Shown here: piece after piece, positions 1 to 20,153 of the stretch | Position numbering within the stretch: the first letter of the stretch is position 1 | Layout of the letters: each line of letters starts with the position of its first letter | Source of the DNA: a virus | IMG/VR virus record: IMGVR_UViG_3300021373_001468 | Coordinates: 1 to 20,153 of that record | Direction: 5' to 3' (one strand) | DNA length: 20,153 bases | Position numbers and translations under genes: made by a program | Notes under the pieces: model-generated | The model's input: the letters and a program-made list of their open reading frames with translations, nothing else | Database searches by the model: none | What the model was told of the DNA's origin: nothing

Positions 1-912
1 TTGTCTCAATTTATCTGCAAGTCTTTCTTCTATGTCTTCACCCATAACGAGTGTAGATAATTGATTGATTATGATTTGTAATGTGCTTGGACTCATTGCA
101 GATAGAGTTGCAAGTTGGTCTTTTGTGAGACCTTTTATTTTAGATAGTTTTTGTTGAACCCTTTTCTTATCGAGTTTTGCTTCTGCTAAGTCATCTCCCA
201 TTCTTAAGAATAGAGTTCCTTTCTTTTGTTTTTTGTCTGATACAGTCATTCCGACCATTCGTGCCATTTGATTGATAAGACTTACACCATCAGAAGGTCT
301 CTTAGAATACATAGTCTCCATTTTCTTTTGAATTTCTTTTGCGACTGTTCTAATAATTTGATGAGCAGGTGCTACGAGTTTGCCTTCTTCTAAATCATCT
401 AAATCAAAATCATTCTCTTCGATAATTTCTTTGTAATCTCTACCTAATACTTTTTTGACATCTCTCTGCAATTCTTTATATGCTTTGTTATCCATATTAC
501 TTGCATCAAAATCATCAATGGTATGATACAATCGATTCATCAAACTAACATATGCAGAATTAGACTTGAATTCTTTCTCTTTTTTTGAAAGAAGGTCATA
601 TGCTTTTTGTAATGCCTTTTTATCTTTTATGTTTCTTTTATTGAGAATTGCCTTTTCACCAAACATTCGTTTGAATTTCTTAGTGTGTTGAGATGGTTTA
701 GTCTCTGCACCAGCATCACCTGGTGCTGGTTTGTATGCCGCAGGATTATCATCGTCCATCTTAGCACCTTTTTTGAAGTGTGCATCTCTGGCTGCTTTTG
801 ATTTCTTACTTACACCTGAGAAATATTTTGAAGGTTGAGTTCCCTCACGGTCTTTGATATCTTTATCTTGTGCGACCTTTTTAGTTTCTAATATTTTCTT
901 TAGTAAGTCCAT
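1..912 (-). CDS. Conserved marine T4-like phage protein, 3' end outside window
   Basis: Open frame of 304 codons from ATG at 912 running off the window edge, so the C-terminus is missing. The N-terminal 75 residues contain KYFSGVSKKSKAARDAHF and, later, NPAAYKPAPGDAGAETKPS followed by a Lys-rich stretch. From memory this resembles a short domain of unknown function that recurs in cyanophage proteins (possibly the one catalogued as DUF5872; the number is not certain). The remainder is charged, helix-rich and Lys/Glu-heavy, with no catalytic motif I can name and no signal peptide or membrane segment. It lies directly downstream of the adenylyltransferase-kinase gene, with a T4-late-like box overlapping that gene's stop codon. 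There is no Shine-Dalgarno before the ATG. The frame is certain; the function is unknown. Confidence 0.8.
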   Translation of the reverse strand, partial: MDLLKKILETKKVAQDKDIKDREGTQPSKYFSGVSKKSKAARDAHFKKGAKMDDDNPAAYKPAPGDAGAETKPSQHTKKFKRMFGEKAILNKRNIKDKKALQKAYDLLSKKEKEFKSNSAYVSLMNRLYHTIDDFDASNMDNKAYKELQRDVKKVLGRDYKEIIEENDFDLDDLEEGKLVAPAHQIIRTVAKEIQKKMETMYSKRPSDGVSLINQMARMVGMTVSDKKQKKGTLFLRMGDDLAEAKLDKKRVQQKLSKIKGLTKDQLATLSAMSPSTLQIIINQLSTLVMGEDIEERLADKLRQ

Positions 913-917
913 GATAC

Positions 918-925
918 TATTTATG
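918..925 (-). promoter_or_regulatory. T4-late-like promoter box CATAAATA
   Basis: The minus strand reads CATAAATA, one mismatch from the T4 late consensus TATAAATA. The box overlaps the TAA stop of the upstream gene (923-921). With T4 spacing (-13 to -6), +1 falls at 912, exactly the A of the next ATG, and no ribosome-binding site is present. This implies a leaderless late transcript. The motif is seen; its use is inferred. Confidence 0.55.
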
Positions 926-2165
926 ATTTTTTACTTAGTAACTGTTGCTCTTTCCATTTAGTAGCAAGTTTGTTGCCAGGAAATGCTGAAGACCATGTAA
1001 GTAATTTGCTGTAAAGTTTGTTTGCTTTTTTTACCAATGTATCTAAGTCATCATCATTCATAACTTCTACAAAATCTTTTTTAAATATGCTTCTAAATGT
1101 TGCTACGTTCTTTTGTGCTTTGTCCCAATCTTTCTTTACAATTTCGGGTGGTAATTTTCTTGGTCTAGATTCATTTCTTTTTTGAGCATTGTCTAAACTT
1201 GTGTTAACATATACCATTTTACTTTCATATCCAATTGTATCAAGTAATTTTTTGTATTTCTTTATTTTACTTGCATCTGATGAGGTGGTGTCAAAAATCA
1301 TTCCAAGTCTACCCTCAATATAGTTATCCATATTCTTTGCAGTTAGTTTTTTTGCTTTTGCACGAATTGGGTCTACCTTTGTAAAGTCTGCACCCCTCAA
1401 ATCAAGTGAAAGACCTGCTTTCTTTAAACCGTTTTCAAATGCCTTATCTGTATTCACAACTTTAAGTCCTAAGGCATTCAAACCTAATTCTTTAACAACT
1501 GTAGATTTACCACTTCCTGGTCCACCTGATAGAAATACTGCTTTGAAAATACCAGGGTCATATACACCTTCAGTGATTAAATCTTCAATCATGTAATTAG
1601 GTAATGTCTCTTCGACTATACCCATGCCCTTTTTGACTGCTTTGAATAGTTTGAGTTTATCTGCATTACTACGAGTAGGAACACCTTCTTTGAAATTATC
1701 AAAGTCATTCTTTTCTGCATATGCTCTCATCTTAGATGCTGACATTCCTGAAACGTCATCTGAATCTGGGTCACGTTCTCCTGCAGATACTACATTAATC
1801 TCTTTAAAGTCATAAAACCCATGTCTTGCTTTTACACCATTGTATTTTTTGAGTAAATTATCAAACTCTCTGATTCTATCTGAGCCGACCATCATATTGA
1901 TTTTTTCGTAACCTTGATTTTGTAATTCGTTTGCGATATCGAATACTGTTCTTGCACTGACATCAGGCACACCAACTTTTTTACCAAAGAACTTTCTCAG
2001 AAATGATATCTTTTGTTTGTGATTAAGTGGATTCTTTAACTTATCGTTAGAGTGTGATGTGAATAGAAGTTTATCACCACCCAATTTTGCGAGTTTATTT
2101 ACAAGTAACTGATGACCTGTTGTTGGTGGATTAAATCTTCCAAATGTAAAACTTACTTCTTTCAT
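921..2165 (-). CDS. Bifunctional adenylyltransferase (NadM-like)-P-loop kinase fusion
   Basis: 414 residues. The N-terminal domain (about 1-180) is a cytidylyltransferase/NMN-adenylyltransferase fold: GRFNPPTTGH at 9-18 is the nucleotide-binding HxGH variant (TTGH), and SASKMR at 142-147 matches the family's second motif (ISxTxxR type). The C-terminal domain (about 207-390) has a textbook Walker A, GGPGSGKST at 214-222, NTD at 238-240, and an Arg-rich lid (R330, R334, R336), like the polynucleotide kinase/zeta-toxin kinase group. It could therefore make NAD or another adenylylated product and phosphorylate a nucleotide, RNA/DNA end or other substrate; the substrate is not deducible. I chose ATG at 2165 over the longer TTG start because the ATG sits in a TAATG overlap with the upstream stop, suggesting translational coupling to the ligase-like gene. 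Confidence 0.8.
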   Translation of the reverse strand: MKEVSFTFGRFNPPTTGHQLLVNKLAKLGGDKLLFTSHSNDKLKNPLNHKQKISFLRKFFGKKVGVPDVSARTVFDIANELQNQGYEKINMMVGSDRIREFDNLLKKYNGVKARHGFYDFKEINVVSAGERDPDSDDVSGMSASKMRAYAEKNDFDNFKEGVPTRSNADKLKLFKAVKKGMGIVEETLPNYMIEDLITEGVYDPGIFKAVFLSGGPGSGKSTVVKELGLNALGLKVVNTDKAFENGLKKAGLSLDLRGADFTKVDPIRAKAKKLTAKNMDNYIEGRLGMIFDTTSSDASKIKKYKKLLDTIGYESKMVYVNTSLDNAQKRNESRPRKLPPEIVKKDWDKAQKNVATFRSIFKKDFVEVMNDDDLDTLVKKANKLYSKLLTWSSAFPGNKLATKWKEQQLLSKKS

Positions 2166-3364
2166 TATTTGTCCCAATCTTTGGCAACTGTAAAGTTATT
2201 TAAACTGAACTCCATTCTGTCTACTAATTTTACTGCTTTACCTTCTTTATCAATTGCTACATAACCCTCTGGGTTCACTGTTTTGAATCCTGTATCTGTT
2301 TTTTGAAATGTACCAATACTCTTTACTCTGTTTAATGAATCTACAATTATCTTTTTAGATTCTATCAAACCTCTCTGAAAAATTGTCAATGCATCGATTG
2401 TTGTTTTAAGACTTCTTAATTCTCTGAGTGTTTGAACTTTGATTTCAGTCTTAAGTATCTTATGTTTCTCTGTCTTTAACTTTGCAATTACTTTCTCGTC
2501 AAAGTATTTATCGACATGATTTAGGTAGTCTTTGTACGATGGGTCAAATTTGCCTGACCTAATCTTTGTGTTCGCATATGTTTTATATGTGGCACCTGGC
2601 GCCTTTGACTGTAGCATTTTATTAATATCATTAAATGTTTGTAAATTTTTCTTAGTAATCTTTCTAAACGTTTTACCCACGACTGACAATGCTTTAGATA
2701 ATTTAACTGCCTCTTTTGCAGTCATTTTTCCTGTGCCAGAAACATCTTTATAAGATGCATCATCTACCCATACCTCTGAACTATTACCTAATGATGATGT
2801 ATCAACTCCAAACTTTGCTGACATATCTTGTAACGTGCTACCTGAATATGATGTATGAAATACTATGCCTAGTTTGGCATTCTCTATTTGATTGCCTAGT
2901 TGTGAACCTTTGAGTGCGGCATACGTAATTGTGTTGGGGGTAAAGGTAACGTAATCTTCCCCACTAATCTTCTTGTCTTTTTTATCTGAATCAGTAAACA
3001 TCAAGTCACCTTGAATGATGCCTGAATAGTTTAACTTGGATAGATATTTGAATGATTCGACAAACTTATCTTGTAAGTCTCCAGATAAATCGTCTTTGAT
3101 TTCTTGTTCTGTTGTGTAAAATTTTGGCTCTTTATTGAATAAAGATTTCTTTGCTATGATAAACTGATTCGTTTCTGGGTGTTTACCAACAAATAAAGCA
3201 GGAGCACCATCCCATTTTACAGTCATGTTAACACTTTTAGATACATTGCCCTTAAGCATATCCCTCAGTGACCTGAGAAAGTTTATAGATGCACGACCAC
3301 CATCTATACCATTGTTGATGATTTCGTCTTCTAAATGTTCTAAATGTAGATTTTTAACTGCCAT
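2165..3364 (-). CDS. KxDG covalent nucleotidyltransferase, DNA/RNA ligase-like
   Basis: 399 residues. K50-W-D-G53 within VKWDGAPALFVG matches motif I of the ligase/capping-enzyme superfamily, where the Lys is adenylylated. GIIQGDLMF (115-123) resembles motif III, GIVFHTSY (166-173) motif IIIa, PEGYVA (365-370) motif IV and AVKLVDR (377-383) motif V. The approximately 190 residues between IIIa and IV are unusually long and form a Lys-rich helical insert. Family knowledge says such enzymes seal nicks or join RNA; the exact substrate is unknown, and marine phage homologues are usually left as hypothetical. It is coupled by a one-base overlap to the adenylyltransferase-kinase downstream. Both a sigma70-like and a late-like promoter lie just upstream. 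The ATG start has no clear ribosome-binding site. I am fairly sure of the superfamily, less of ligase activity. Confidence 0.65.
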   Translation of the reverse strand: MAVKNLHLEHLEDEIINNGIDGGRASINFLRSLRDMLKGNVSKSVNMTVKWDGAPALFVGKHPETNQFIIAKKSLFNKEPKFYTTEQEIKDDLSGDLQDKFVESFKYLSKLNYSGIIQGDLMFTDSDKKDKKISGEDYVTFTPNTITYAALKGSQLGNQIENAKLGIVFHTSYSGSTLQDMSAKFGVDTSSLGNSSEVWVDDASYKDVSGTGKMTAKEAVKLSKALSVVGKTFRKITKKNLQTFNDINKMLQSKAPGATYKTYANTKIRSGKFDPSYKDYLNHVDKYFDEKVIAKLKTEKHKILKTEIKVQTLRELRSLKTTIDALTIFQRGLIESKKIIVDSLNRVKSIGTFQKTDTGFKTVNPEGYVAIDKEGKAVKLVDRMEFSLNNFTVAKDWDK

Positions 3365-3372
3365 AGTACTGT

Positions 3373-3401
3373 ATTATAACATTTCCAAAATGAAATGTAA
3401 A
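3373..3401 (-). promoter_or_regulatory. Sigma70-like promoter with inverted repeat filling the spacer
   Basis: Minus strand: -35 TTTACA (3401-3396), 17-base spacer, -10 TATAAT (3378-3373). A perfect 7-base inverted repeat, ACATTTC-attttg-GAAATGT (3398-3379), starts inside the -35 and ends right beside the -10, as expected of a repressor operator. Predicted +1 is about 3366, only one or two bases from the ATG at 3364. Confidence 0.65.
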
Positions 3402-3410
3402 GCTCAGTAC

Positions 3411-3418
3411 TATTTATG
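3411..3418 (-). promoter_or_regulatory. T4-late-like promoter box CATAAATA
   Basis: CATAAATA on the minus strand, same octamer as at 918-925 and 10517-10524. With T4 spacing, +1 is about 3405, giving a 40-base leader for the ligase-like gene. Together with the sigma70-like promoter at 3373-3401 this suggests the gene is expressed both early and late. Confidence 0.5.
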
Positions 3419-3431
3419 ATTTTTAAAAGAC

Positions 3432-3851
3432 TTATTCTGAAGGTTCAGATGATTCGGATTCAGCGGCAATCAATGTATCACATTGTGTGATTTCGTTTGT
3501 CCACTTTGTAATCATTTCTGCTTTAGTTTTTGCAACACCATCTATTGTAAAATTTTCATTTTCAAAATCTTGCCATGCTTCATAGAATGCAACATCATGT
3601 CCATCTTCTGATTCAGCAGTTACTGAAGAGTGATTGCTTCTCCAATCCGCCCAATATGCTGTAGCACCACCAGTTCCTATCCACTGCCAATACTTCCATT
3701 CAGAACTTCCATCTGCTTGATACTTAAATGATATGTTTAATTCATCTGAGGTGTCTTCGTAAAATCCTTTCCAGAATTCAGCAGTATCCTTTCTTTCTTG
3801 TAAAGTTAAAGTGTCACCTGTAGGCAAATCTAGATTATTAGTATATGGCAT
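3432..3851 (-). CDS. Unknown acidic phage protein
   Basis: 139 residues from an ATG preceded by ACGGAG at good spacing. The protein is acidic and rich in Trp, Tyr, Ser and Glu, ends in a Ser/Glu tail (ESESSEPSE), and contains the aromatic patch SSEWKYWQWIG near residues 49-59. There is no signal peptide, membrane span or known catalytic motif. It stands between a coiled-coil small gene and the ligase-like gene, with its own late-like box at 3879-3886, so a late (structural or packaging-time) role is possible. I do not recognise the family. The reading frame is supported by the ribosome-binding site, the clean intergenic gaps on both sides and codon use like its neighbours. Confidence 0.7.
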   Translation of the reverse strand: MPYTNNLDLPTGDTLTLQERKDTAEFWKGFYEDTSDELNISFKYQADGSSEWKYWQWIGTGGATAYWADWRSNHSSVTAESEDGHDVAFYEAWQDFENENFTIDGVAKTKAEMITKWTNEITQCDTLIAAESESSEPSE

Positions 3852-3878
3852 AAAAACTCCGTGATAATTTTATACTAT

Positions 3879-3886
3879 TATTTAGT
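3879..3886 (-). promoter_or_regulatory. T4-late-like promoter box ACTAAATA
   Basis: The minus strand reads ACTAAATA, identical to the box at 17515-17522. It overlaps the stop codon of the small gene 3882-4055. Predicted +1 is about 3873, leaving a 22-base leader with an ACGGAG ribosome-binding site before the ATG at 3851. Confidence 0.45.
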
Positions 3887-4055
3887 TTTTTGACAACGTA
3901 TGCCCAGAGATTTTTACTTCTATTCTGTGAATTTTTAATTTAAGATTGAGTACGAGTTTTTCATTCTTCTCTTTTTTGGCAACTCTTAACTCCTTTTTAA
4001 GATTGACCTTCTCTGTTAGAAGGTCAATAACTTCGTTCGGTTGTAATGCTTTCAC
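3882..4055 (-). CDS. Small Lys-rich coiled-coil protein, GTG start
   Basis: 57 residues beginning GTG-AAA-GCA, where the GTG shares its first base with the TAG stop of the upstream phosphatase gene (TAGTG), an arrangement typical of coupled translation. The translation starts VKALQPNEVIDLLTEKVNL and continues as Lys/Glu/Leu-rich sequence with heptad-like spacing of Leu, Ile and Val, so a short coiled coil is likely. It has no Cys, no membrane span and no recognisable family. It fills what would otherwise be a 200-base gap between two genes, and its stop overlaps the next late-like promoter box. A DNA- or RNA-binding accessory to the neighbouring phosphatase is possible but is only inference from position and charge. 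Confidence 0.55.
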   Translation of the reverse strand: MKALQPNEVIDLLTEKVNLKKELRVAKKEKNEKLVLNLKLKIHRIEVKISGHTLSKN

Positions 4056-4507
4056 TAGAAATCACCCTCTGCAACTTGAACACATGTAGTTCCTCTTTTT
4101 CTCCACATGTCGACAACTTTGTTTCTATCGTCAAAGACTACATCAATCTTTCCACCGAGTTCTTCAAACTTGTCTGCAAGTTCTGATTTGAATTCTGCAT
4201 CACATCTGAAATCGCCATTAGGTCTAAGGAAGACTCCTTTATGACCATCACCAATCCATTCTGAAATCTGTTTCTCAGTAACTTCTCTTTCTGATTCGTT
4301 TCTTGCAGAAAAGAATGCAACATCGTCACCTTGCTTAATGAATCTTTTTGCGATATCACAAACCCATTGAACAGGAGTATCATCTTCTGTTGCTTTTCTA
4401 AATGCATTCCAATCAGGTTTAAAACCTTTATCACCATTTACAAGATGTCTTCTATGTTCAACATCTGCGATGGTTCCGTCTACATCAAAAATTACTGTCT
4501 TTTTCAT
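4055..4507 (-). CDS. Stand-alone PNKP-type 3' phosphatase (HAD family)
   Basis: 150 residues. FDVDGT at 7-12 gives the two HAD-family aspartates (D8 nucleophile, D10). FFSARNE is motif II, and VVFDDRNKVVDMW near the end supplies the acidic motif IV. The last 30 residues closely follow what I recall of the phosphatase domain of T4 polynucleotide kinase-phosphatase (Pnkp/PseT), including the CVQVAEGDF-type ending. Homologues remove 3' phosphates from RNA or DNA ends. Here the kinase domain of T4 Pnkp is absent, so this is a domain-only version; a separate P-loop kinase lies at 921-2165. I chose ATG 4507 because the upstream extension is non-homologous and a consensus promoter ends just before this ATG. 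A nucleotidase of the same fold is the alternative. Confidence 0.8.
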   Translation of the reverse strand: MKKTVIFDVDGTIADVEHRRHLVNGDKGFKPDWNAFRKATEDDTPVQWVCDIAKRFIKQGDDVAFFSARNESEREVTEKQISEWIGDGHKGVFLRPNGDFRCDAEFKSELADKFEELGGKIDVVFDDRNKVVDMWRKRGTTCVQVAEGDF

Positions 4508-4545: not shown

Positions 4546-5973
4546 TTATTCTAGATATTCTGAACATATTTGATATGCTTCAGAACCAGTATAAGTTTGT
4601 GAATTACTCCTACATTCTTGCGTAGTTGTTGTTATACTAAACACCCATTCATTATTATAAAGTCTTTGATAATCACCACTGTAGAGATAAGTATTATTGT
4701 AATCTACATATTGCATTGTAGTTTCAAACGAAACTAAGTCATCATAAATGTTTTGAAAGGTGGTAGTATCTCTAAACTCAAAGAGATTCTCTAAATCATG
4801 GTCAAAATTATAGTTAGTTTCATTTGTAAAAAAGATATCAAATCTTTGTGTTGCTGAGAAGTTACTATAAAATCTGCCTACATCACCTTCAGTGTATGCT
4901 TTTCTACCTTCACCCAAAAATACTACCATATATGAAATACTATTGTCTTCAGTAATTTGTTCTATTGTAACTGGCATACCTTCTACAATATTGCCTTTTG
5001 AAATATATGTTATTGATGTATGAAAGTTAGCATGAGTCTGAATGTTTTCAAAAGTTGCTGTATATAAATCACCATTGCTGTCTATCAGATTACCGTTTGT
5101 ATCTACGACTAAATCTTGGACTCTGAATATCTCTTCTCTAAGAAAATTATCTGTTTCTGTTTGTCTGTCGACACCAATAACATTGATTGCAAGACTATCA
5201 AACTGAGTGTTTGTCATAATGTAATCTACAATACCGGCATCTATCTGAATCCTTAGTGTAGTGTTGTATTGATTTTCTAATGTTGCTAATACATCAAAAC
5301 CCGTTTGCATGAAGTCTACGAGTCTTTCTGCGATTGCTTGTTTTGTTGTATTGCCTGACTCGATATAGTCTTCATAAAAATAAGTTATGTCGACATCAAA
5401 TTTGTTTTGAAGTTCACCTGCTAAACCATTGAATTTAAATTTTAAATCCTCTTCAACTGCTTCGCCTTGTTCAGCACAACCTTCACTTACAGACATTTCC
5501 GGAGTTGCTACATCATTTAAATATGATGCAATGATTGTTGTAAAGGGTGTAATATTGCTTTGACTGTTATCATAAGGTATAAAATATAAATCGTATGCTT
5601 CTTCTACATAACCTCTGTCTTCGTCATAAGCACCGACAGGCACCTCTGCAATTCGAGGTCTATTATAAAAACAACTTGCAGTATAAGTTTCTATATGTTC
5701 AAACTGACTAGATTCCCAATAATAGCTATTTGTTTCATTGTCATATAAAGCACTAGGTTCATCTGTATCTTGTATAAAGTTGTAGTTCATGTCTACAAAT
5801 AGATTTGCACCTGAAATGTAACCATCGATAACTTTAGTATTTCCAAATGACGTGCTTGTTTGAGTAGGTGGTTGGGGAGATGATTCTATCTCTAAAACAC
5901 CAAGACTAACTGGTGAACTGCCTCCACATGCTGTAAGTAAAATTGTAAGTGTTGCTATAATATAATTTTTCAT
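4546..5973 (-). CDS. Large outer-membrane-type lipoprotein
   Basis: 475 residues. MKNYIIATLTILLTACGGSS is a bacterial lipoprotein signal with lipobox LTAC; Cys16 would be lipidated, and Gly at +2 does not signal inner-membrane retention, so outer-membrane placement is expected. VIDGYISGANLFVDMNYN (about 49-66) followed by QDTDEP resembles a beta-rich motif seen near the N-terminus of gammaproteobacterial surface lipoproteins. The rest is acidic, rich in Tyr, Asn and Thr, with scattered Cys and no enzyme motif I recognise. It starts within a 4-base ATGA overlap with the glycosyltransferase gene, so the two are probably co-translated. Phage lipoproteins of T5 Llp type block receptors against superinfection, but those are far smaller; that role here is only a guess. 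It may have come from a host. Confidence 0.8.
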   Translation of the reverse strand: MKNYIIATLTILLTACGGSSPVSLGVLEIESSPQPPTQTSTSFGNTKVIDGYISGANLFVDMNYNFIQDTDEPSALYDNETNSYYWESSQFEHIETYTASCFYNRPRIAEVPVGAYDEDRGYVEEAYDLYFIPYDNSQSNITPFTTIIASYLNDVATPEMSVSEGCAEQGEAVEEDLKFKFNGLAGELQNKFDVDITYFYEDYIESGNTTKQAIAERLVDFMQTGFDVLATLENQYNTTLRIQIDAGIVDYIMTNTQFDSLAINVIGVDRQTETDNFLREEIFRVQDLVVDTNGNLIDSNGDLYTATFENIQTHANFHTSITYISKGNIVEGMPVTIEQITEDNSISYMVVFLGEGRKAYTEGDVGRFYSNFSATQRFDIFFTNETNYNFDHDLENLFEFRDTTTFQNIYDDLVSFETTMQYVDYNNTYLYSGDYQRLYNNEWVFSITTTTQECRSNSQTYTGSEAYQICSEYLE

Positions 5974-7466
5974 TCTGTATAATCCGTAATTAATTTCATT
6001 CCGTAATCGTTGTTACCTTCAGGAATTTCTATTCCTTCTTTGAAGATAAGTCTGTTAGACTTAAATGGTTCGTAATCAACAAAGTGATGCCATCTTCCAT
6101 ATTTCCAAACAACTTTTGCTACGTCTGGGTGCATATCTGCCAACATCTGACTCTTGTTAATTGTTCCATCAGTGTTGTAACCTTCTTTGTTTATCTTGTC
6201 TGAGTTTTCTGCATGATAAAACTCTGATGTATTACCACCTGCAACTGTTTGTGTAGCAGTTTTGCCTTGAAGAAATGCATTGAACTGAACTGTACAATCA
6301 CCATCTTTCAATACTCTCAAACACAAATCAGTATCTTCGTTATATCTACCTCTCCATCTATGCTTACAATCATTTCTGATTAAAAGGGCAGAATAGATTC
6401 TTGTGTTTGCTACGTAAGGTGGTCTGTATAAATCTGATGGTACAAAGAATCTATATTGAGGACCAGCAACAGGAATGTTTTCATATCTATCAACGAAGTC
6501 TTCCATTGCTTTAAAACCTACACCACTTTCAAATCGTATTCTTTGATTGTTATGTAATCTATAGAAGTCTGCAATGTTATCATCAAAGACCCAATGTGAA
6601 GTTGCACCAAGTTCAATACTATGGTCCCATGCCCAATTTCTGGCACGACCAGGTCCATCACCATGATTACTAAATGGGGCAACTAATAGTTCAGCATAAG
6701 TAATTTTGAACTTTTCAAGTGCTTCTTCGTATTGTGTTTTCTCTTGTGGTTCAATCACAATGTAATGAGGTATCTTCATACGATTGAATGACTTAGAAGT
6801 AATCATTGAATCATATCTTGTCTTTGATACAATGTACATTGGATATTTTGGTAAATCATGTCTATCTGGTTGAATCCATCTCAGATTAAAATTCTTAGGG
6901 AATACTTTTCTTGGGTGCCAGATTGCTTTTGTTTTATCATTGTATGTTTCGCCAAGTCTATTCTGTAGTTCTTTATATGCCTCTTCAGTTCTTATTTTAA
7001 TTGTAATTGACCTGTAAGATTCTATCTGAGGTTGATTGAACGATGGCATATTTTGCCAATGAAGACTGTATCTATTTTCTCTCGACAAATCAGTTCTTGG
7101 TTGTGGTTGTCTTTTTGGTTTGGCAACCATTCGTGATGTGTCTGCGATTGTAATAGGTTGCTCGTAAGTATCACCGAAAAAGTTTGTGTTAGGGTCTGCG
7201 AGTGGAAAGTAAGTTGATGTTTGTTTTGTATCAATATACTGACCTAGTTTCTCACAAAGGTCTTTGAATGAATCTAAGTCTTGTATATGGACAATTAAAT
7301 GTTTGTAATTACCTTCTAGTTCAGCATCTGATTTAGGTATCTCAGGCAAAACTGAAGCAAACTCTTCACCGTCTTCTGTAAATTTATCCAGTGTTGCTTT
7401 GTATTCGTCTTTAATTCTACCTTCTTTATCTAGGTAGTTATCATATTGTGCTGATTCTTTTACCAT
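5970..7466 (-). CDS. Putative DNA-hypermodification glycosyltransferase (TAGT-like)
   Basis: 498 residues in two parts. The N-terminal half holds two copies of a short beta-alpha unit (about 57-93 and 152-186), each of the form hydrophobic strand, x-FKDL/YKEL helix, then TST-YFP or TKAIWHP. I recall this unit beside ParB-like and DNA-modification proteins of phages. The C-terminal half (about 205-480) has VFDDN (293-297), a DxD-like metal/sugar-nucleotide site, and RGRYNEDTDLCLRVLKDG (372-389), matching the GT-A glycosyltransferases described as TET/JBP-associated (TAGT/GREB1-like). Those enzymes add sugars to oxidised or hydroxymethylated bases. No TET/JBP or hydroxymethylase gene is in the window, so the acceptor is unknown. 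It sits 2 bases after gp41 and overlaps the lipoprotein by 4 bases. A protein or capsule glycosyltransferase is the alternative. Confidence 0.65.
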   Translation of the reverse strand: MVKESAQYDNYLDKEGRIKDEYKATLDKFTEDGEEFASVLPEIPKSDAELEGNYKHLIVHIQDLDSFKDLCEKLGQYIDTKQTSTYFPLADPNTNFFGDTYEQPITIADTSRMVAKPKRQPQPRTDLSRENRYSLHWQNMPSFNQPQIESYRSITIKIRTEEAYKELQNRLGETYNDKTKAIWHPRKVFPKNFNLRWIQPDRHDLPKYPMYIVSKTRYDSMITSKSFNRMKIPHYIVIEPQEKTQYEEALEKFKITYAELLVAPFSNHGDGPGRARNWAWDHSIELGATSHWVFDDNIADFYRLHNNQRIRFESGVGFKAMEDFVDRYENIPVAGPQYRFFVPSDLYRPPYVANTRIYSALLIRNDCKHRWRGRYNEDTDLCLRVLKDGDCTVQFNAFLQGKTATQTVAGGNTSEFYHAENSDKINKEGYNTDGTINKSQMLADMHPDVAKVVWKYGRWHHFVDYEPFKSNRLIFKEGIEIPEGNNDYGMKLITDYTE

Positions 7467-14760: not shown

Positions 14761-16133
14761 GCAAAGAATTCTTCTAGTGTTGAAACTGCAACGTTCTTAA
14801 ATAAATCTACAGAGGTGTCTTTACTAAAACACCATACGTTTTCTATATACATCTTATCAAAGAATTCGTGTAATGCTTCTTGGTCAAACTCACCGTCTTC
14901 TGTTGCGAATACATTTTTACCTTGTGGTCGTTGCATGATTCTCATGCCAACTTGACCAATGAAATTGTTTCTTAACATATCAACGAGTTCATCACCTGAC
15001 CTATATCTTTTGTTTTTAATTTTAGGGTCTAAAATGTTTATCATTAATATGCCTGTATCACTAAGGGCATCAAATGATTTTTGTGAAACAGGTAAATAGA
15101 ACTCGTCTCTCCACTTTTCATATTCATTAAACTTTGCCCATGATTGGTCTTCTTCATGTTCACCACCTTTGTTGTATTCTTCAGTTGAGAAATATGGTGG
15201 AGATGTGAATGCACAATCGATTGGTGGTAATGTTTCGTATGGTAAGTTCTCTGCACCACATCTATAGATTGTAACTTTCTTTGAACCCTCTGATATAAAT
15301 TTATCATCTTCGAAATACATGTAAGGTTCGTTACCTGTTAGTATTTTTTCATATGCAACACATTGTTTTTTGTATTGTTCAAAGACATTTGGATTTGGGT
15401 CGCAACCATAATACTCATCTGCATTCGAAGTGTAGAAACCACAAAGTCTATCACCCCAACCACATGATGTATCTAAAATAGTTTTTGCTTGTGTAAGTTC
15501 ATAGATTGCTCTTGCGACATTTGGTTTGAACTGAGTTGCAACGTAAGTGCCTAATCTGAATGATGATATATAACTCTTCTCTGCAAGTTCACCACCTACT
15601 AATCGTTCTTCACCATCAATCTGAACTTTCTTAACACCGTTGATGCCCCTCCAAATCGGACCTAGACAACTCCATATTTCTTTTGCTGTCCCAGATTTGA
15701 AAACTTCTACAGGTGATTTGTAACCATAACTGCCACATGCGAGTCTTAAATGTTGATGAAAGTAATCACTTGCATCATTAAATGTATGAGTAGAATCAAT
15801 AACACCTAGTCCGTATTCATTGAAGTCATATTTGTAATCATCATATTTTTCTAAGACTTCTTTTTGTAAATCTTTAACTGCTGTTACATCACGGAATGGG
15901 TCTGAATCTTTGAGTGCGAGAAACATGTTTCTGTATCTCTCTTCAGAGATAATCTTCATAGGATATTCTGGTCTTTCAGTAGCAATAAATTTAGCAAGTG
16001 TTTCTCTAAAAAGTTCTTTGCCAAATTCATCGTTCAAACTTTGAAAGGTATGACTATCTAGGATAGGCACACCTCTCTCGTTTGTATTCTGTTTAAGAAC
16101 TTGGTATAGTTTATCCGACAAAGTCCTCACCAT
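14757..16133 (-). CDS. DNA (likely N4-cytosine/N6-adenine) methyltransferase
   Basis: 458 residues. SAM-binding motif I is DTSCGWGDRL (221-230), motif II acidic residue D245 in GCDPN, and catalytic motif IV is TSPPYF (310-315); the S/TPPY form is often found in N4-cytosine enzymes, but N6-adenine cannot be excluded. A 200-residue N-terminal region of unknown fold precedes motif I and may help recognise target DNA. No restriction endonuclease is adjacent, so it looks like an orphan methylase protecting phage DNA. It ends STLEEFFA, which resembles the polymerase's clamp-binding-like SLDSFFA tail. It overlaps peroxiredoxin by 23 bases upstream and the acetyltransferase by 4. ATG 16133 and the adjacent GTG are both possible starts. 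Confidence 0.85.
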   Translation of the reverse strand: MVRTLSDKLYQVLKQNTNERGVPILDSHTFQSLNDEFGKELFRETLAKFIATERPEYPMKIISEERYRNMFLALKDSDPFRDVTAVKDLQKEVLEKYDDYKYDFNEYGLGVIDSTHTFNDASDYFHQHLRLACGSYGYKSPVEVFKSGTAKEIWSCLGPIWRGINGVKKVQIDGEERLVGGELAEKSYISSFRLGTYVATQFKPNVARAIYELTQAKTILDTSCGWGDRLCGFYTSNADEYYGCDPNPNVFEQYKKQCVAYEKILTGNEPYMYFEDDKFISEGSKKVTIYRCGAENLPYETLPPIDCAFTSPPYFSTEEYNKGGEHEEDQSWAKFNEYEKWRDEFYLPVSQKSFDALSDTGILMINILDPKIKNKRYRSGDELVDMLRNNFIGQVGMRIMQRPQGKNVFATEDGEFDQEALHEFFDKMYIENVWCFSKDTSVDLFKNVAVSTLEEFFA

Positions 16134-16632
16134 CTTCCCAACCGCAACCTGTTAGTCCACCTGCTTGTAAACCTTGTAGAGTTCTTAGAACTTCTTTATG
16201 GTTTCTTCCAGTGTCTAGTGCATTGATTGAGGCATGTTGAATGACTCTGTTTTTGTCAAAGATAAAAGTTGCACGATAGCACACACCTTCTTCTTCGTTA
16301 ACGATACCTAATGCAGATGATAATCCAAGTCCACAATCAGCGGCAAGAGTATGTCTGATATTACCTATCAATTCATTCTCTTTTTTCCATGCTAATTTAC
16401 AGAACTCGTTATCACCACTTATTCCTATCACGTTTGCGTGGTCGACTAAAGTGTCGAAACCAGCAATCTCTGTAGGGCATATAAAGGTAAAGTCTTTTGG
16501 ATAAAAGTAAACTACTGACCAATCATGTTTTAATGGTTCATAGTTTTCTTCTACACTGACTCTCACAAATTCGTTGTTTTCGTTAATTCCTTGCAGTGAG
16601 AAAGCAGGAAATAAATCTCCAACTGATAACAT
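16111..16632 (-). CDS. 2-Cys peroxiredoxin (AhpC/Prx1 type)
   Basis: 173 residues, slightly shorter than cellular 2-Cys enzymes (about 185-200). The peroxidatic site is FYPKDFTFICPTE with Cys52 and the conserved Pro/Thr. The resolving Cys is probably Cys163 in LTGCGWEDGED, replacing the usual VCPxxW. The protein would reduce hydrogen peroxide or organic hydroperoxides using host thioredoxin or AhpF. It has a good ribosome-binding site (AAAGGAG, seven bases before ATG) and a strong sigma70-like promoter with an internal palindrome. It follows hsp20, suggesting a stress-protection pair, and overlaps the methyltransferase. Such auxiliary genes are unusual in phages and this one is likely host-derived. 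Confidence 0.92.
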   Translation of the reverse strand: MLSVGDLFPAFSLQGINENNEFVRVSVEENYEPLKHDWSVVYFYPKDFTFICPTEIAGFDTLVDHANVIGISGDNEFCKLAWKKENELIGNIRHTLAADCGLGLSSALGIVNEEEGVCYRATFIFDKNRVIQHASINALDTGRNHKEVLRTLQGLQAGGLTGCGWEDGEDFVG

Positions 16633-16700: not shown

Positions 16701-17111
16701 CTACTTAATTTTGATAGATACTGGTTTATCTTCTTCAGGAATAACTCTTACCAGTTTGACATGTAGAATACCATCTTTCATGTCTGCACCACTGACTTCA
16801 ACATCATCTGCAAGTGTGAAACTTCTTTTGAAAGCTCTTGATGCAAGTCCTTTGTGGACAAAATCTTTTGAGTCTTCATCAAGTTTACCTTCGATGGTTA
16901 AAAGAGTTTTCTCTTTAGTGATTTCAATATCTTTCTTACCAAATCCTGCAACTGCAAGTTCAATGCAAAAGTTTTCTGCATCTTCTTGTACTATGTTGTA
17001 AGGTGGGTAATTAGTTTGAGTGTGATTTGATAGACGATTGAGTTCATCAAAGTATCTATCGAATCCAATTGTGAGTGGTCTGAATTGACCAAATATATCT
17101 AAATGAGTCAT
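16701..17111 (-). CDS. hsp20: Hsp20 small heat-shock protein
   Basis: 136 residues. A short N-terminal arm (FGQFRPLTIGFDRYFDEL) is followed by the alpha-crystallin domain: YPPYNIVQEDAENFCIELAVAGF, an IEITKEKTLLTIEG segment, HKGLASRAFKRSFTLADDV, and the DGILHVKL version of the conserved A-x-x-x-GVL motif. The tail PVSIKIK contains an IxI oligomerisation motif. This is the IbpA-like class found in most marine T4-like phages, where it probably helps fold or protect phage proteins. A strong SD (AGGAG) precedes the ATG. Upstream, 130 bases of predicted leader contain a stable stem-loop, raising the possibility of RNA-level control as in several bacterial small heat-shock genes. Confidence 0.95.
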   Translation of the reverse strand: MTHLDIFGQFRPLTIGFDRYFDELNRLSNHTQTNYPPYNIVQEDAENFCIELAVAGFGKKDIEITKEKTLLTIEGKLDEDSKDFVHKGLASRAFKRSFTLADDVEVSGADMKDGILHVKLVRVIPEEDKPVSIKIK

Positions 17112-17768: not shown

Positions 17769-18369
17769 GTTTCTGGCATCCACTTTTTGCTCTTTGAATT
17801 ACGTTTAGATTATTACCAATAACCAATACCATAAATCTATTGGTTGAACGAATAGATGCGGCGTTTAAATTACCATGTTTTCTATCGTATTCTAGTGCTG
17901 GTGTTAATAATCCAAATTTATAAAAGAACAATCTTTCAGGTGTTGGATTTTCACCAAACAAGGGATTCGCTTCTTTAACACAATCATACTTTAAACCATA
18001 GATTGTTGACCAAACATCTAAAAATTGTAATGTAGTAAAAATTACCCAATCACCTGTAGAAGGTGGGTCAATCAGTTCCCAGTGGTGTGTATATTCGAAC
18101 CTTTTCGGATTTACCCTTAACAAGTATTCTGTCGACTTCAGTAAATGCTCTTGATGGACACTGTTGATATGTTCGTTCCGATAACAACACGTCCACCCCA
18201 TCATAATTTCTTGTTTGTCCCTCGAGTCTAGCACCAAGGTTGACGGCGTCTCCAATGACGGAATAGTCAAATCTAATTTCTGACCCCATGTTTCCGACAA
18301 TACATTCTCCTGTGCTAATGCCGATACCGACATTAATAGGAGGGAGATTGAGAGGAGATAGTTCTTCAT
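17764..18369 (-). CDS. Secreted/membrane protein overprinting the cyclase 3' end; start uncertain
   Basis: 201 residues if ATG 18369 is used. That start has AAGGA five bases upstream and encodes MKNYLLSISLLLMSVSALAQ, a convincing signal peptide with an A-x-A-type cleavage site. The first 302 bases lie in another frame over the cyclase catalytic-domain codons. The non-overlapping part (last ~100 residues) looks like a real family: STGDWVIFTTLQFLDVWSTI, then KEANPLFGENP and a Lys/Phe/Leu segment, similar to small membrane proteins of the LQxxDxxST...NPLxG type (DUF5658-like, from memory). Either the gene is a true overlap, or it starts at an internal or non-ATG codon near 18068 and the signal peptide is coincidence. 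The C-terminal half is believable; the N-terminus is not settled. Confidence 0.55.
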   Translation of the reverse strand: MKNYLLSISLLLMSVSALAQENVLSETWGQKLDLTIPSLETPSTLVLDSRDKQEIMMGWTCCYRNEHINSVHQEHLLKSTEYLLRVNPKRFEYTHHWELIDPPSTGDWVIFTTLQFLDVWSTIYGLKYDCVKEANPLFGENPTPERLFFYKFGLLTPALEYDRKHGNLNAASIRSTNRFMVLVIGNNLNVIQRAKSGCQKR

Positions 18370-19921
18370 TAAGTTCCTTGGTTGCCTCTAGTACTTCTAG
18401 AGCTGATTTTACGGCGAGTTCTGCATGGTCTTCACAATCAAGGGGTGCATTCCAAAATGCCATGATACAATCGCCCATATACTTATCTATGGTGCCTCTG
18501 TTATTTATTATTATTTTTGTTTGCATGTCTAAAAACTTGTTGATGAGTTCAACTAATCCCTCTGGGTCATCATTGTTCTTATATGCCTCAGAGATTGGAG
18601 TAAATCCACATATATCCATAAACATGAAAGTCATTTCTTTTCTTTCCCCACCTAATCTGAGTTTGCTAGGGTCTTTCTGAAGTTCTTCAACCATGTCAGG
18701 AGATAAATATTTCTGGAACTGCTTCTTAATTTGTTCTTTGAGTTGATACGTTACATAGTATTTGTTGAATGAAGCATGACCAAAAACAATCATTGAGGAC
18801 ATTGATGACAAGAAAGTATCGAAAAGAACGTACTCAGAAATCCAAATATAATAACCCCCACCCAATTGAAGTCCAATTATACTTAGACTCACTATCGCCG
18901 AAAGACTTGTGGGAAGTTTGTAAACCACTGCCAGAATTAATAAAAGCACTGCCAGTAGAACGACAACTTCAAGAAATTCAAGATAGTAGGATTGTTGTAT
19001 ACGAACTTCTTGCAAGACGGTTTGGATTAGGTGTGCTTGAACTTCATGAGGATACATTGTACCCACTGGAGTTGAAATTGGATTATTCAATCCCTCAGCA
19101 GTTAGACCCCATACTAGAACCTTGTTTGTAAAATCAGGTAATTCCTGAAGGTCACTTGCTGAAACACGATTGAAGTGATTCCAGTATGAAATCATAACAT
19201 CACTTGTTGGTGTTGTTTCAATAGGAGGTGCCTTTCCCATACGCACCCATTCTATACCTACTTCTTCTGTAACTTTAGTTTGATAACTCCCCATATCATA
19301 TAATGCTCTGAGAGTTTCTAATGCTAATGATGGATATACTTGTTCATTGGCATACACAAGCAATGGGGCACTTCTTATAGTCCCATCAAAATTAGACGTT
19401 CCTGAGACGGCTGGTGTTGCTACAGTAACACCTACACCGTAAGTATTGTTCTTTAATATATCTACAGGACTTGCTATTCCATCATATTGCCATATGGAAT
19501 CTTGAATCGAACCTCCTCCAAATGTACTTGTAGGGACAAATGGTGCCGAGCCAGTGTTTTTCTGATTAGTTGGCTGTGAGGATAAAATTGTTAATCTGTT
19601 GATTAAACCCTCTGCAAATAGCTCATCTTGGCCGAATCTATCTGGTTCAGTAAAGGCAATTGAGAAGACATGCGTAAGTGAAGGACTTGAGGAAAGTAGA
19701 ATCTCTCTATAGATATCTCTCGGCCATGGGAACTGACCATATTTTTCTAATGCTTTCTCATCGATATCTACTAGAACGATATCGTCTACGTGAACTTTTT
19801 CTTCTTGTTGATGTAGAAAGTCAAACCATGACCATGATATATTTTCTATGAAATACGGATTCCAAATCTTAAGACCAACTAATAGTCCTATTGTAACTAA
19901 AACAGTTTTCCAACTATACAC
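18068..19921 (-). CDS. CHASE2-transmembrane class III adenylate cyclase
   Basis: 617 residues from GTG 19921, overlapping the iscU stop by 8 bases. One N-terminal span (about 5-22) is followed by an extracytoplasmic CHASE2 sensor (about 40-310; VDDIVLVDIDEKALEKYGQF and FPWPRDIY are typical), then about three spans (315-390), a linker, and the cyclase domain (about 428-612). Metal aspartates D436 (FMDICGF) and D484 (YMGDCIMAFW), Lys480, Ser554 in the Asp/Thr adenine site (FDYSVIGDAVN), and transition-state N561 and R565 are all present, so it should make cAMP at the inner membrane in response to an external signal. Some 60-base blocks count 45-48% G+C against 37-38% in sampled polymerase blocks, hinting at later acquisition. 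Such receptors are cellular proteins and very rare in phages. Confidence 0.92.
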   Translation of the reverse strand: MYSWKTVLVTIGLLVGLKIWNPYFIENISWSWFDFLHQQEEKVHVDDIVLVDIDEKALEKYGQFPWPRDIYREILLSSSPSLTHVFSIAFTEPDRFGQDELFAEGLINRLTILSSQPTNQKNTGSAPFVPTSTFGGGSIQDSIWQYDGIASPVDILKNNTYGVGVTVATPAVSGTSNFDGTIRSAPLLVYANEQVYPSLALETLRALYDMGSYQTKVTEEVGIEWVRMGKAPPIETTPTSDVMISYWNHFNRVSASDLQELPDFTNKVLVWGLTAEGLNNPISTPVGTMYPHEVQAHLIQTVLQEVRIQQSYYLEFLEVVVLLAVLLLILAVVYKLPTSLSAIVSLSIIGLQLGGGYYIWISEYVLFDTFLSSMSSMIVFGHASFNKYYVTYQLKEQIKKQFQKYLSPDMVEELQKDPSKLRLGGERKEMTFMFMDICGFTPISEAYKNNDDPEGLVELINKFLDMQTKIIINNRGTIDKYMGDCIMAFWNAPLDCEDHAELAVKSALEVLEATKELNEELSPLNLPPINVGIGISTGECIVGNMGSEIRFDYSVIGDAVNLGARLEGQTRNYDGVDVLLSERTYQQCPSRAFTEVDRILVKGKSEKVRIYTPLGTD

Positions 19922-20153
19922 GTTTTGATTCCCAATCTTCTATTGCTTTTTTGATTGAGTCTTCTGCAAGAACTGAGCAGTGTAGTTTGATTGCAGGTAG
20001 TTCTAATATCTCTGCAATCTCTTTATCTTTAATTTGTTTTGCTTCTTCTATGGTTTTACCTTTGAGTAAATCTACAAATAGTGAACTACTTGCAATTGCA
20101 CTTCCACAACCATAAGTCTTAAACTTTACGTCTACTATCATTTCGTTTTCGTC
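19914..20153 (-). CDS. iscU: IscU/NifU-N Fe-S scaffold, 5' end outside window
   Basis: 79 codons to the window edge; the frame stays open, and comparison with IscU shows about 45-50 N-terminal residues are missing. VKFKTYGCGSAIASSSL and ELPAIKLHCSVLAEDSIKKA are hallmark IscU segments, giving two of the three cluster-ligating Cys (the counterparts of Cys63 and Cys106 in E. coli) and a variant LPPVK chaperone site (LPAIK). The first ligand Cys lies upstream of the window. IscU assembles 2Fe-2S clusters with IscS. An internal ATG near 20141 is not the true start, because homology continues above it. In a phage this would support Fe-S supply during infection. Confidence 0.9.
   Translation of the reverse strand, partial: DENEMIVDVKFKTYGCGSAIASSSLFVDLLKGKTIEEAKQIKDKEIAEILELPAIKLHCSVLAEDSIKKAIEDWESKRV

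Follow-up and report, generated by a model that had tools for sequence, protein, structure and literature searches.

DUF6267 of T4-like marine phages, a protein family with a predicted ligase fold encoded beside an NMNAT-like adenylyltransferase

The window analyzed here, meaning the whole 20,153-base virus record (IMGVR_UViG_3300021373_001468) of a marine T4-like phage, encodes on its minus strand a 399-aa protein of the Pfam family DUF6267, and this protein and its neighboring enzymes are the subject of the present study. Judging from its modeled fold, DUF6267 very probably belongs to the ligase superfamily, that is, to the covalent nucleotidyltransferases. The fold, the conservation of motifs, gene coupling and fusion, and the enrichment of a capsid-targeting-like N-terminal tag form the basis of our proposal, for and against which we see the case as evenly balanced, that DUF6267 is an adenylyltransferase that seals ends, has an NMNAT-like partner and in many cases is packaged and then delivered along with the phage DNA. 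What is new is the family and its architecture inside a known enzyme superfamily, along with a possible mode of delivery that is unusual.

An earlier note on this DNA had described three open reading frames (ORFs) as a dispersed end-repair module. All three ORFs are found on the minus strand:

921..2165, minus strand: NMNAT/PPAT-like HxGH-superfamily adenylyltransferase (residues 1-190) and PSTK/PNK-like P-loop kinase (residues 203-414), by profile and structure comparison
2165..3364, minus strand: DUF6267 protein, predicted covalent nucleotidyltransferase (ligase fold), 399 aa, by profile, AlphaFold2 model and motifs
4055..4507, minus strand: predicted stand-alone PNKP-type HAD 3'-phosphatase, 150 aa, accessory and limited to the window's clade, by profile and homologue search

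The first ORF encodes 414 aa from its ATG, and an alternative TTG at 2177 would give 418 aa; an ATG at 4567, upstream of the third, would give 170 aa, and homologue matches begin at 4507. Because the stop of the DUF6267 ORF shares one base with the start of the adenylyltransferase-kinase ORF (TAATG), translational coupling of the two, as the note had suggested, is plausible and probable.

Motifs and predicted fold of DUF6267

The 2165-3364 protein matches DUF6267 (PF19782, function unknown) over the entire profile (1-376/376, E = 4.5e-99, over the cut-off), and NCBIfam holds no model for it. No paper naming DUF6267 was found among the open-access papers searched; a 2016 survey of RNA repair (Burroughs and Aravind), not one of these, may touch the family. 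Relatives were gathered from IMG/VR, GTDB genomes and phage records. Invariant columns among 57 diverse members include K50, D52, G53, A54, P55, Q118, G119, D120, H170, Y173, E366, G367, V369 and K379, and the invariant residues follow the order of the ligase motifs, i.e., I (KxDG), III (hGE, here QGD), IIIa, IV (EGYV) and V. In the window protein, the predicted catalytic Lys50 lies in KWDG and is followed by QGD (118-120), GIVFHT (166-171), a helical insert (about 216-345), EGYV (366-369) and K379. Among full-length homologues, K.DGAP is present in 172/172, QGD in 171/172, EG[YF]V in 171/172 and K[LI]V[DN]R in 160/172. The KxDG motif singled out in the earlier note is therefore real, with K50-W-D52-G53 as its form in the window, and recognizing it was a non-trivial guess in a protein that has no sequence-level match to ligases. 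Short homologues from Syn9, ACG-2014a and P-SSM2 (24-29% identity to the window protein) have lost most of the IIIa-IV region and still have K50, D52, G53, D120, E366, G367, V369 and K379; that is, the helical insert has been deleted naturally with motif residues kept.

An AlphaFold2 model built from the 57-sequence alignment reached a predicted local distance difference test score (pLDDT) of 84.9 and a predicted template modeling score (pTM) of 0.74. When VIA-align 2 was used to align the top 1000 Foldseek candidates to this model, all 50 of the 50 PDB entries listed were RNA or DNA ligases. The best match is RNA editing ligase 1 (Z 8.3, 194 aligned residues, 4.4 Å), followed by T4 Rnl1 (Z 8.0), T4 Rnl2 (Z 7.6) and then mainly DNA ligases at Z 6-7, the best-scoring RNA ligases spanning Z 7.5-8.3. 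The 399-aa protein is thus placed within the ligase fold by structure prediction, as the note had anticipated, and this assignment draws on the uniform list of ligases together with the motifs, not on one strong match. Foldseek alone (carbonic anhydrases, root-mean-square deviation 18 Å) would have suggested no known fold, a reading that we rejected when ligases rose to the top on re-scoring by VIA-align.

In a profile-profile comparison with T4 Rnl1, the best local match covers exactly motifs IV-V, EGYVAIDKEGKAVKL in DUF6267 and EGYVAVMKDGSHFKI in Rnl1, with K379 on K240. The structural alignments to Rnl1 end at 392 on 252 and at 391 on 251, which, provided that the final part of the alignment contains no gap, agrees with the profile register of motifs IV-V to within one residue. 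Beyond motif V the model has only about 16-20 residues, forming one helix. Because only about 16 residues remain, DUF6267 is predicted to have no C-terminal oligonucleotide-binding (OB) domain with motif VI. This domain is needed by DNA ligases and capping enzymes, and not by Rnl1 and Rnl2. Like T4 Rnl1 (PF09511) and T4 Rnl2/REL1 (PF09414), DUF6267 combines the nucleotidyltransferase fold and the I-III-IIIa-IV-V motif order with no requirement for motif VI or an OB domain, and its motif IV-V match is to Rnl1. Unlike them, it has no family-level sequence match, carries a helical insert of about 120 residues between IIIa and IV, has no C-terminal domain, has D for E in motif III and is coupled to an NMNAT-like enzyme.

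At the sequence level no family match ties DUF6267 to ligases, as the window protein matches at E ≤ 1 only DUF6267 and one chance family. It has no profile match to PF01068 (ATP-dependent DNA ligase, gp30 type) and no match over the cut-off to PF09511 or PF09414 (Rnl1/Rnl2); among the 57 members, one reaches PF09511, at E = 0.017 only. A PDB sequence search with the DUF6267 profile gave chance matches only, hhalign to the Rnl1 and Rnl2 profiles was not significant, and the profile-profile E of 0.03 for the Rnl1 match is not significant alone (eight control profiles were worse, 0.08-0.51). The non-significant profile scores weigh against a ligase-type enzyme, and so do other results. Foldseek of the model against the PDB returned no match at E ≤ 0.001, and a Z of about 8 is no higher than the background seen for models that match nothing clearly. 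In many ligases an R or N usually stands after KxDG; motif I of DUF6267 has neither, motif III has Asp instead of Glu, and motif V has one Lys of two.

The adenylyltransferase-kinase partner

The 921-2165 protein matches CTP_transf_like (PF01467, E = 1.3e-4, over the cut-off), and residues 1-190 resemble PPAT, NadM and NMNAT structures at Z 13-14.7. This region is an HxGH-superfamily adenylyltransferase, for which NMNAT and PPAT cannot be told apart by motifs. Residues 203-414 match AAA_33 (E = 6e-12), Zeta_toxin (E = 3.7e-11) and TIGR03574 (E = 2.4e-9), and their nearest folds are O-phosphoseryl-tRNA(Sec) kinase (PSTK, Z 13.9) and Clostridium thermocellum polynucleotide kinase (Z 13.2), which bears out the fusion of an adenylyltransferase to a P-loop kinase described in the note. 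GGPGSGKS and D240 are invariant in the kinase. The Arg three residues past the catalytic Asp is replaced by F243 (NTDKAF, compared with NRDDYR and D35/R38 in T4 Pnk), which counts against end healing by this domain; a 5'-end kinase role is possible and is not indicated by the residues. A site resembling that of the prohead protease between the two domains (DLITE|GVYDP, with E199-G200 invariant in 29 sequences) is suggestive, and we do not claim it since the strict pattern is present in only 26/80 fused proteins.

Of 180 loci for which downstream sequence is available, 157 have an NMNAT-like gene within 3 kb downstream of DUF6267. In S-PM2, the two are joined in one 591-residue protein (UniProt A0A0M6VVW4), and phrog_455 spans both domains. 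In the older S-PM2 record NC_006820 (locus L004:6001-7780), this DUF6267-cytidyltransferase fusion is split into two coding sequences, probably by a sequencing frameshift. The kinase fusion was found in 65/65 cases in the window's clade (≥60% identity) and in 1/61 outside it, and so marks that clade. The conserved core is the pair of DUF6267 and the NMNAT-like protein, not a three-gene module. The cyanophage "cytitidyltransferase" T4-GC190 and T4-GC71 are the orthologous gene pair, in which, unlike here, the kinase fusion and the phosphatase are absent and GC71 had no assigned function.

Could the pair serve metabolites? Here the NMNAT-like enzyme, with a NadR-style kinase in the clade, would make or restore nicotinamide adenine dinucleotide (NAD+) or cofactors like coenzyme A, and DUF6267 would transfer adenosine monophosphate (AMP) to a protein or small molecule, or bind a nucleotide as a regulator. 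Consistent with this idea, NadR (NMN adenylyltransferase-ribosylnicotinamide kinase) is the top Foldseek match of the 921-2165 protein and has the same domain order, nadR_NMN_Atrans matches at E = 4.9e-5, the NMNAT/PPAT folds noted above are close, and large phages commonly carry genes for the synthesis of NAD+ (PMC9503650). Unlike in NadR, however, the kinase is nearer to PSTK/AAA_33 than to ribosylnicotinamide kinase, the score against the curated NadR equivalog TIGR01526 is 22.7 bits for a cut-off of 341, the kinase fusion is almost absent outside the clade, and the adenylyltransferase is coupled to a ligase-fold protein without motifs that settle NMNAT against PPAT. To our knowledge, no NAD salvage system has a ligase-fold partner. 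We therefore regard a metabolite system as unlikely, though it is the best surviving of the alternatives to end sealing. Another attractive chemistry would make DUF6267 an NAD+-dependent ligase whose nicotinamide mononucleotide is recycled by the NMNAT; the structures listed include no LigA-type enzyme and the phages do not have PF01653, so it survives only as a variant within the rival explanations.

Capsid-targeting-like N-termini

The capsid-targeting sequence of T4 can bring even proteins of foreign origin into the head, and it is removed by cleavage as the head matures (PMC3012670, PMC10229621, PMC9958956); IPII and IPIII of T4 begin with MKTYQEFIAE. A similar N-terminus was found in 47/130 DUF6267, 48/106 NMNAT-like and 34/72 kinase-bearing proteins (36-47%; the sequences are related and the counts not independent), compared with 0.5, 0.2 and 0.1, respectively, expected from shuffled N-termini. 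The tag was present in 36/63 distinct fused relatives of the window's clade and in none of the 84 gp41, 58 UvsX, 20 polymerase and 33 staphylococcal nuclease proteins (0/195 together), nor in any of 16 PNKP-type phosphatases. The peptide of many relatives is thus like that of IPII and IPIII, and unlike there, the cargo would be a ligase-like and NMNAT-like enzyme set. Because many relatives bear this T4-like peptide, the set probably rides in the head.

Virion proteomes bear on the partner in particular. S-SZBM1 has just four tagged ORFs, including the cytidylyltransferase S-SZBM1_140 (MRFRQFIIEA), which has been detected in its virion by mass spectrometry. Virions of other cyanophages also contained the orthologous NMNAT-like protein (PMC3037559; S-CREM2, PMC10665884; S-SCSM1, PMC9602691), and a cyanophage cytidylyltransferase was likewise detected in virions in PMC9146016; some authors of these proteomes caution that carry-over after CsCl purification is possible. 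The tagged ORFs of Melnitz include DUF6267 and its upstream neighbor. On the other side, DUF6267 of S-SZBM1 (SSZBM1_141) is not among the virion proteins detected, no strict tag is present in HTVC008M, and in the window neither DUF6267 nor the NMNAT starts with a tag; packaging of these untagged copies is inferred. Delivery of the family inside virions across many lineages we consider a finely balanced question.

Other tagged proteins were also encountered. A RimK-like ATP-grasp protein of Melnitz (L281:82-1131) begins with a capsid-targeting-like tag, MTQKFSQFITEE, and is another candidate injected enzyme. Two tagged proteins that adjoin the DUF6267 pair (L184:9445-10053, MKSFLQYLEE; L187:3213-3821, MKTFIQFLEE) have a DxDDT HAD-like start (IFDIDDTLFHT) and may be another packaged phosphatase.

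Distribution and the missing ligase

DUF6267 was found in 364 Synechococcus phage records, a T4-like capsid protein in 388, and DUF6267 was present in 61/61 "Cyanophage" records. T4-like cyanophages have been reported to be without T4 g30, either because distant homologues were unrecognized or because none is present (PMC2984593). Among DUF6267-bearing records, a PF01068 ligase was found in 2/19 (DLP6 and S-CRM01), Rnl2-type PF09414 and Rnl1-type PF09511 in 0/19 each, and NAD-type PF01653 in 0/14; T4 was positive in each T4 search made, and some of the 19 records are fragments. The scarcity of known ligases is suggestive of a missing-ligase role for DUF6267; it is not proof, because DLP6 and S-CRM01 have DUF6267 and a PF01068 ligase together and RNA ligases are favored by the fold.

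One form of this role would make DUF6267 the replicative DNA ligase missing from T4-like marine phages, replacing gp30 and sealing Okazaki fragments and recombination nicks. Besides the 17/19 records without PF01068 and the near-universal presence in T4-like cyanophages, the position of the gene just downstream of gp43-uvsX-gp41 accords with such a function. However, DUF6267 has no OB domain of the kind that DNA ligases need, in fold it matches RNA ligases best, DLP6 and S-CRM01 have a canonical ligase in addition, capsid-targeting-like tags are ill suited to an enzyme of the replisome, and the host ligase can substitute. We judge this explanation improbable, a little more so than a metabolite system.

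The phosphatase and the end-repair module

The 4055-4507 protein matches HAD_PNKP (PF25109, E = 7.2e-26, residues 3-150), and FDVDGT at its N-terminus is the DxDGT catalytic motif; a search of the window with PNK3P (PF08645) gave nothing, PF25109 being the fitting family. It matches Pnkp1 (4xrp, E = 1e-11) and T4 Pnkp (1ltq, E = 5e-9), so the note's description of a stand-alone PNKP-type phosphatase holds. Pnkp1 is a member of a bacterial Pnkp1-Rnl-Hen1 repair complex (PMC4411300). The protein is homologous over its full length to the C-terminal HAD domain of T4 Pnkp (pseT). Unlike T4 Pnkp, in which kinase and phosphatase form one chain, the window kinase is on a separate ORF and of the PSTK/AAA_33 type, and the phosphatase is optional. 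In upstream flanks of DUF6267 it was found in 21/55 loci of the clade and 0/66 outside; genome-wide, PF25109 was found in 4/4 large clade contigs and 0/15 other DUF6267 phages, with T4 positive, and in one clade genome the phosphatase lies elsewhere. It is accessory and present in part of the clade only.

The end-repair module of the earlier note therefore stands insofar as the three genes occur together in the window genome, and fails as a conserved unit; the survey of relatives that it called for shows persistence of the DUF6267/NMNAT-like pair without co-conservation of the phosphatase. The weakest of the alternatives, a three-enzyme operon (PNKP phosphatase, kinase, ligase) that undoes host anticodon-nuclease cuts like T4 Pnkp-Rnl1, has in its favor three predicted activities within 3.6 kb, the same set in about one third of close relatives, a phosphatase closest to Pnkp1 and a kinase fold that matches polynucleotide kinase, but it is quite unlikely given a phosphatase absent from 34/55 clade flanks and all 15 other DUF6267 phages, untagged where the other proteins are tagged and in one genome located apart, a kinase without an equivalent of Arg38 in T4 Pnk, and no tRNA gene within the 20,153-base window.

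Other features of the window

The minus-strand order is DNA polymerase, a staphylococcal-nuclease-like protein, UvsX, gp41 helicase, a TAGT-type glycosyltransferase, a lipoprotein-like protein and then the 4055-4507, 2165-3364 and 921-2165 genes. The remaining features near DUF6267 are:

1..912, minus strand: DUF5824-like protein, cut by the window end, by profile matches
3432..3851, minus strand: small uncharacterized protein directly upstream of DUF6267, clade-conserved (52 loci), by locus comparison
4546-5973, minus strand: predicted lipoprotein of 475 aa (LTAC lipobox) between gp41 and DUF6267, clade-conserved (19 loci), by sequence

At its N-terminus, the 1-912 protein has a segment similar to part of the phrog_3041 cytidyltransferase family; in other phages, the NMNAT-like domain carries a homologous segment as a fusion. 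A supposed connection of this protein with the virion protein SSZBM1_139, by way of a DUF5824-like segment common to both, did not hold up. The 475-aa lipoprotein has no match in Pfam or PHROG. The TET-associated glycosyltransferase (5970-7466, minus strand; PF20691, E = 4.6e-42), which adjoins the replication genes, suggests glycosylated hydroxymethyl-pyrimidine DNA. A 617-aa protein (18068-19921, minus strand) has an N-terminal CHASE2 sensor domain (PF05226, E = 5.5e-31) and a class III adenylyl/guanylyl cyclase domain (PF00211, E = 1.8e-19); a membrane-sensor nucleotide cyclase would be unusual in a phage and could alter host cyclic-nucleotide signaling. A NifU N-terminal-like Fe-S scaffold protein (19914-20141, minus strand; PF01592, E = 1.6e-25) has a peroxiredoxin (16111-16632) and an Hsp20 (16701-17111) nearby.

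Discussion

Under the end-sealing explanation that we prefer, DUF6267 would be a divergent, OB-less ligase-type nucleotidyltransferase that takes AMP onto Lys50. This AMP would activate and seal nucleic acid ends, most likely of RNA and less likely of DNA, and we lean slightly toward such sealing as the function of the protein. DUF6267 would work with the NMNAT/PPAT-like adenylyltransferase encoded directly downstream, sometimes in the same polypeptide. The additions in the window's clade, a fused PSTK/PNK-like kinase and in part a PNKP-type 3'-phosphatase, could heal 5' and 3' ends ahead of sealing; that phosphatase, kinase and ligase form one healing-and-sealing pathway in the window phage is nevertheless doubtful. 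With the T4-like capsid-targeting peptide found in many relatives, the enzyme set would be placed inside the head, ejected with the DNA and active at the start of infection. T4 Alt, a packaged enzyme injected with the DNA, is a precedent. In its most far-reaching form, which we offer tentatively and hold to be rather doubtful, the proposal would be that DUF6267 is an unrecognized ligase family that replaces gp30, Rnl1 and Rnl2 in nearly all T4-like cyanophages and, with its NMNAT-like partner, is brought into the head by the targeting peptide and then injected; in this way end sealing, along with the recycling of cofactor, would begin ahead of any phage gene expression. If true, this would be a virion-delivered system of nucleic acid repair.

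DUF6267 is among the commonest proteins of "unknown function" in a very abundant group of ocean phages. If it is a ligase-type enzyme, it would be a candidate for the ligase presumed absent in T4-like cyanophages, and one member of a gene pair noted long ago would gain a function. With the tagging, the unexplained mass-spectrometry finding of an NMNAT-like enzyme in virions becomes a hypothesis that can be tested, namely that the enzymes are packaged and delivered with the genome, and the tag could be used for predicting other injected proteins of marine phages.

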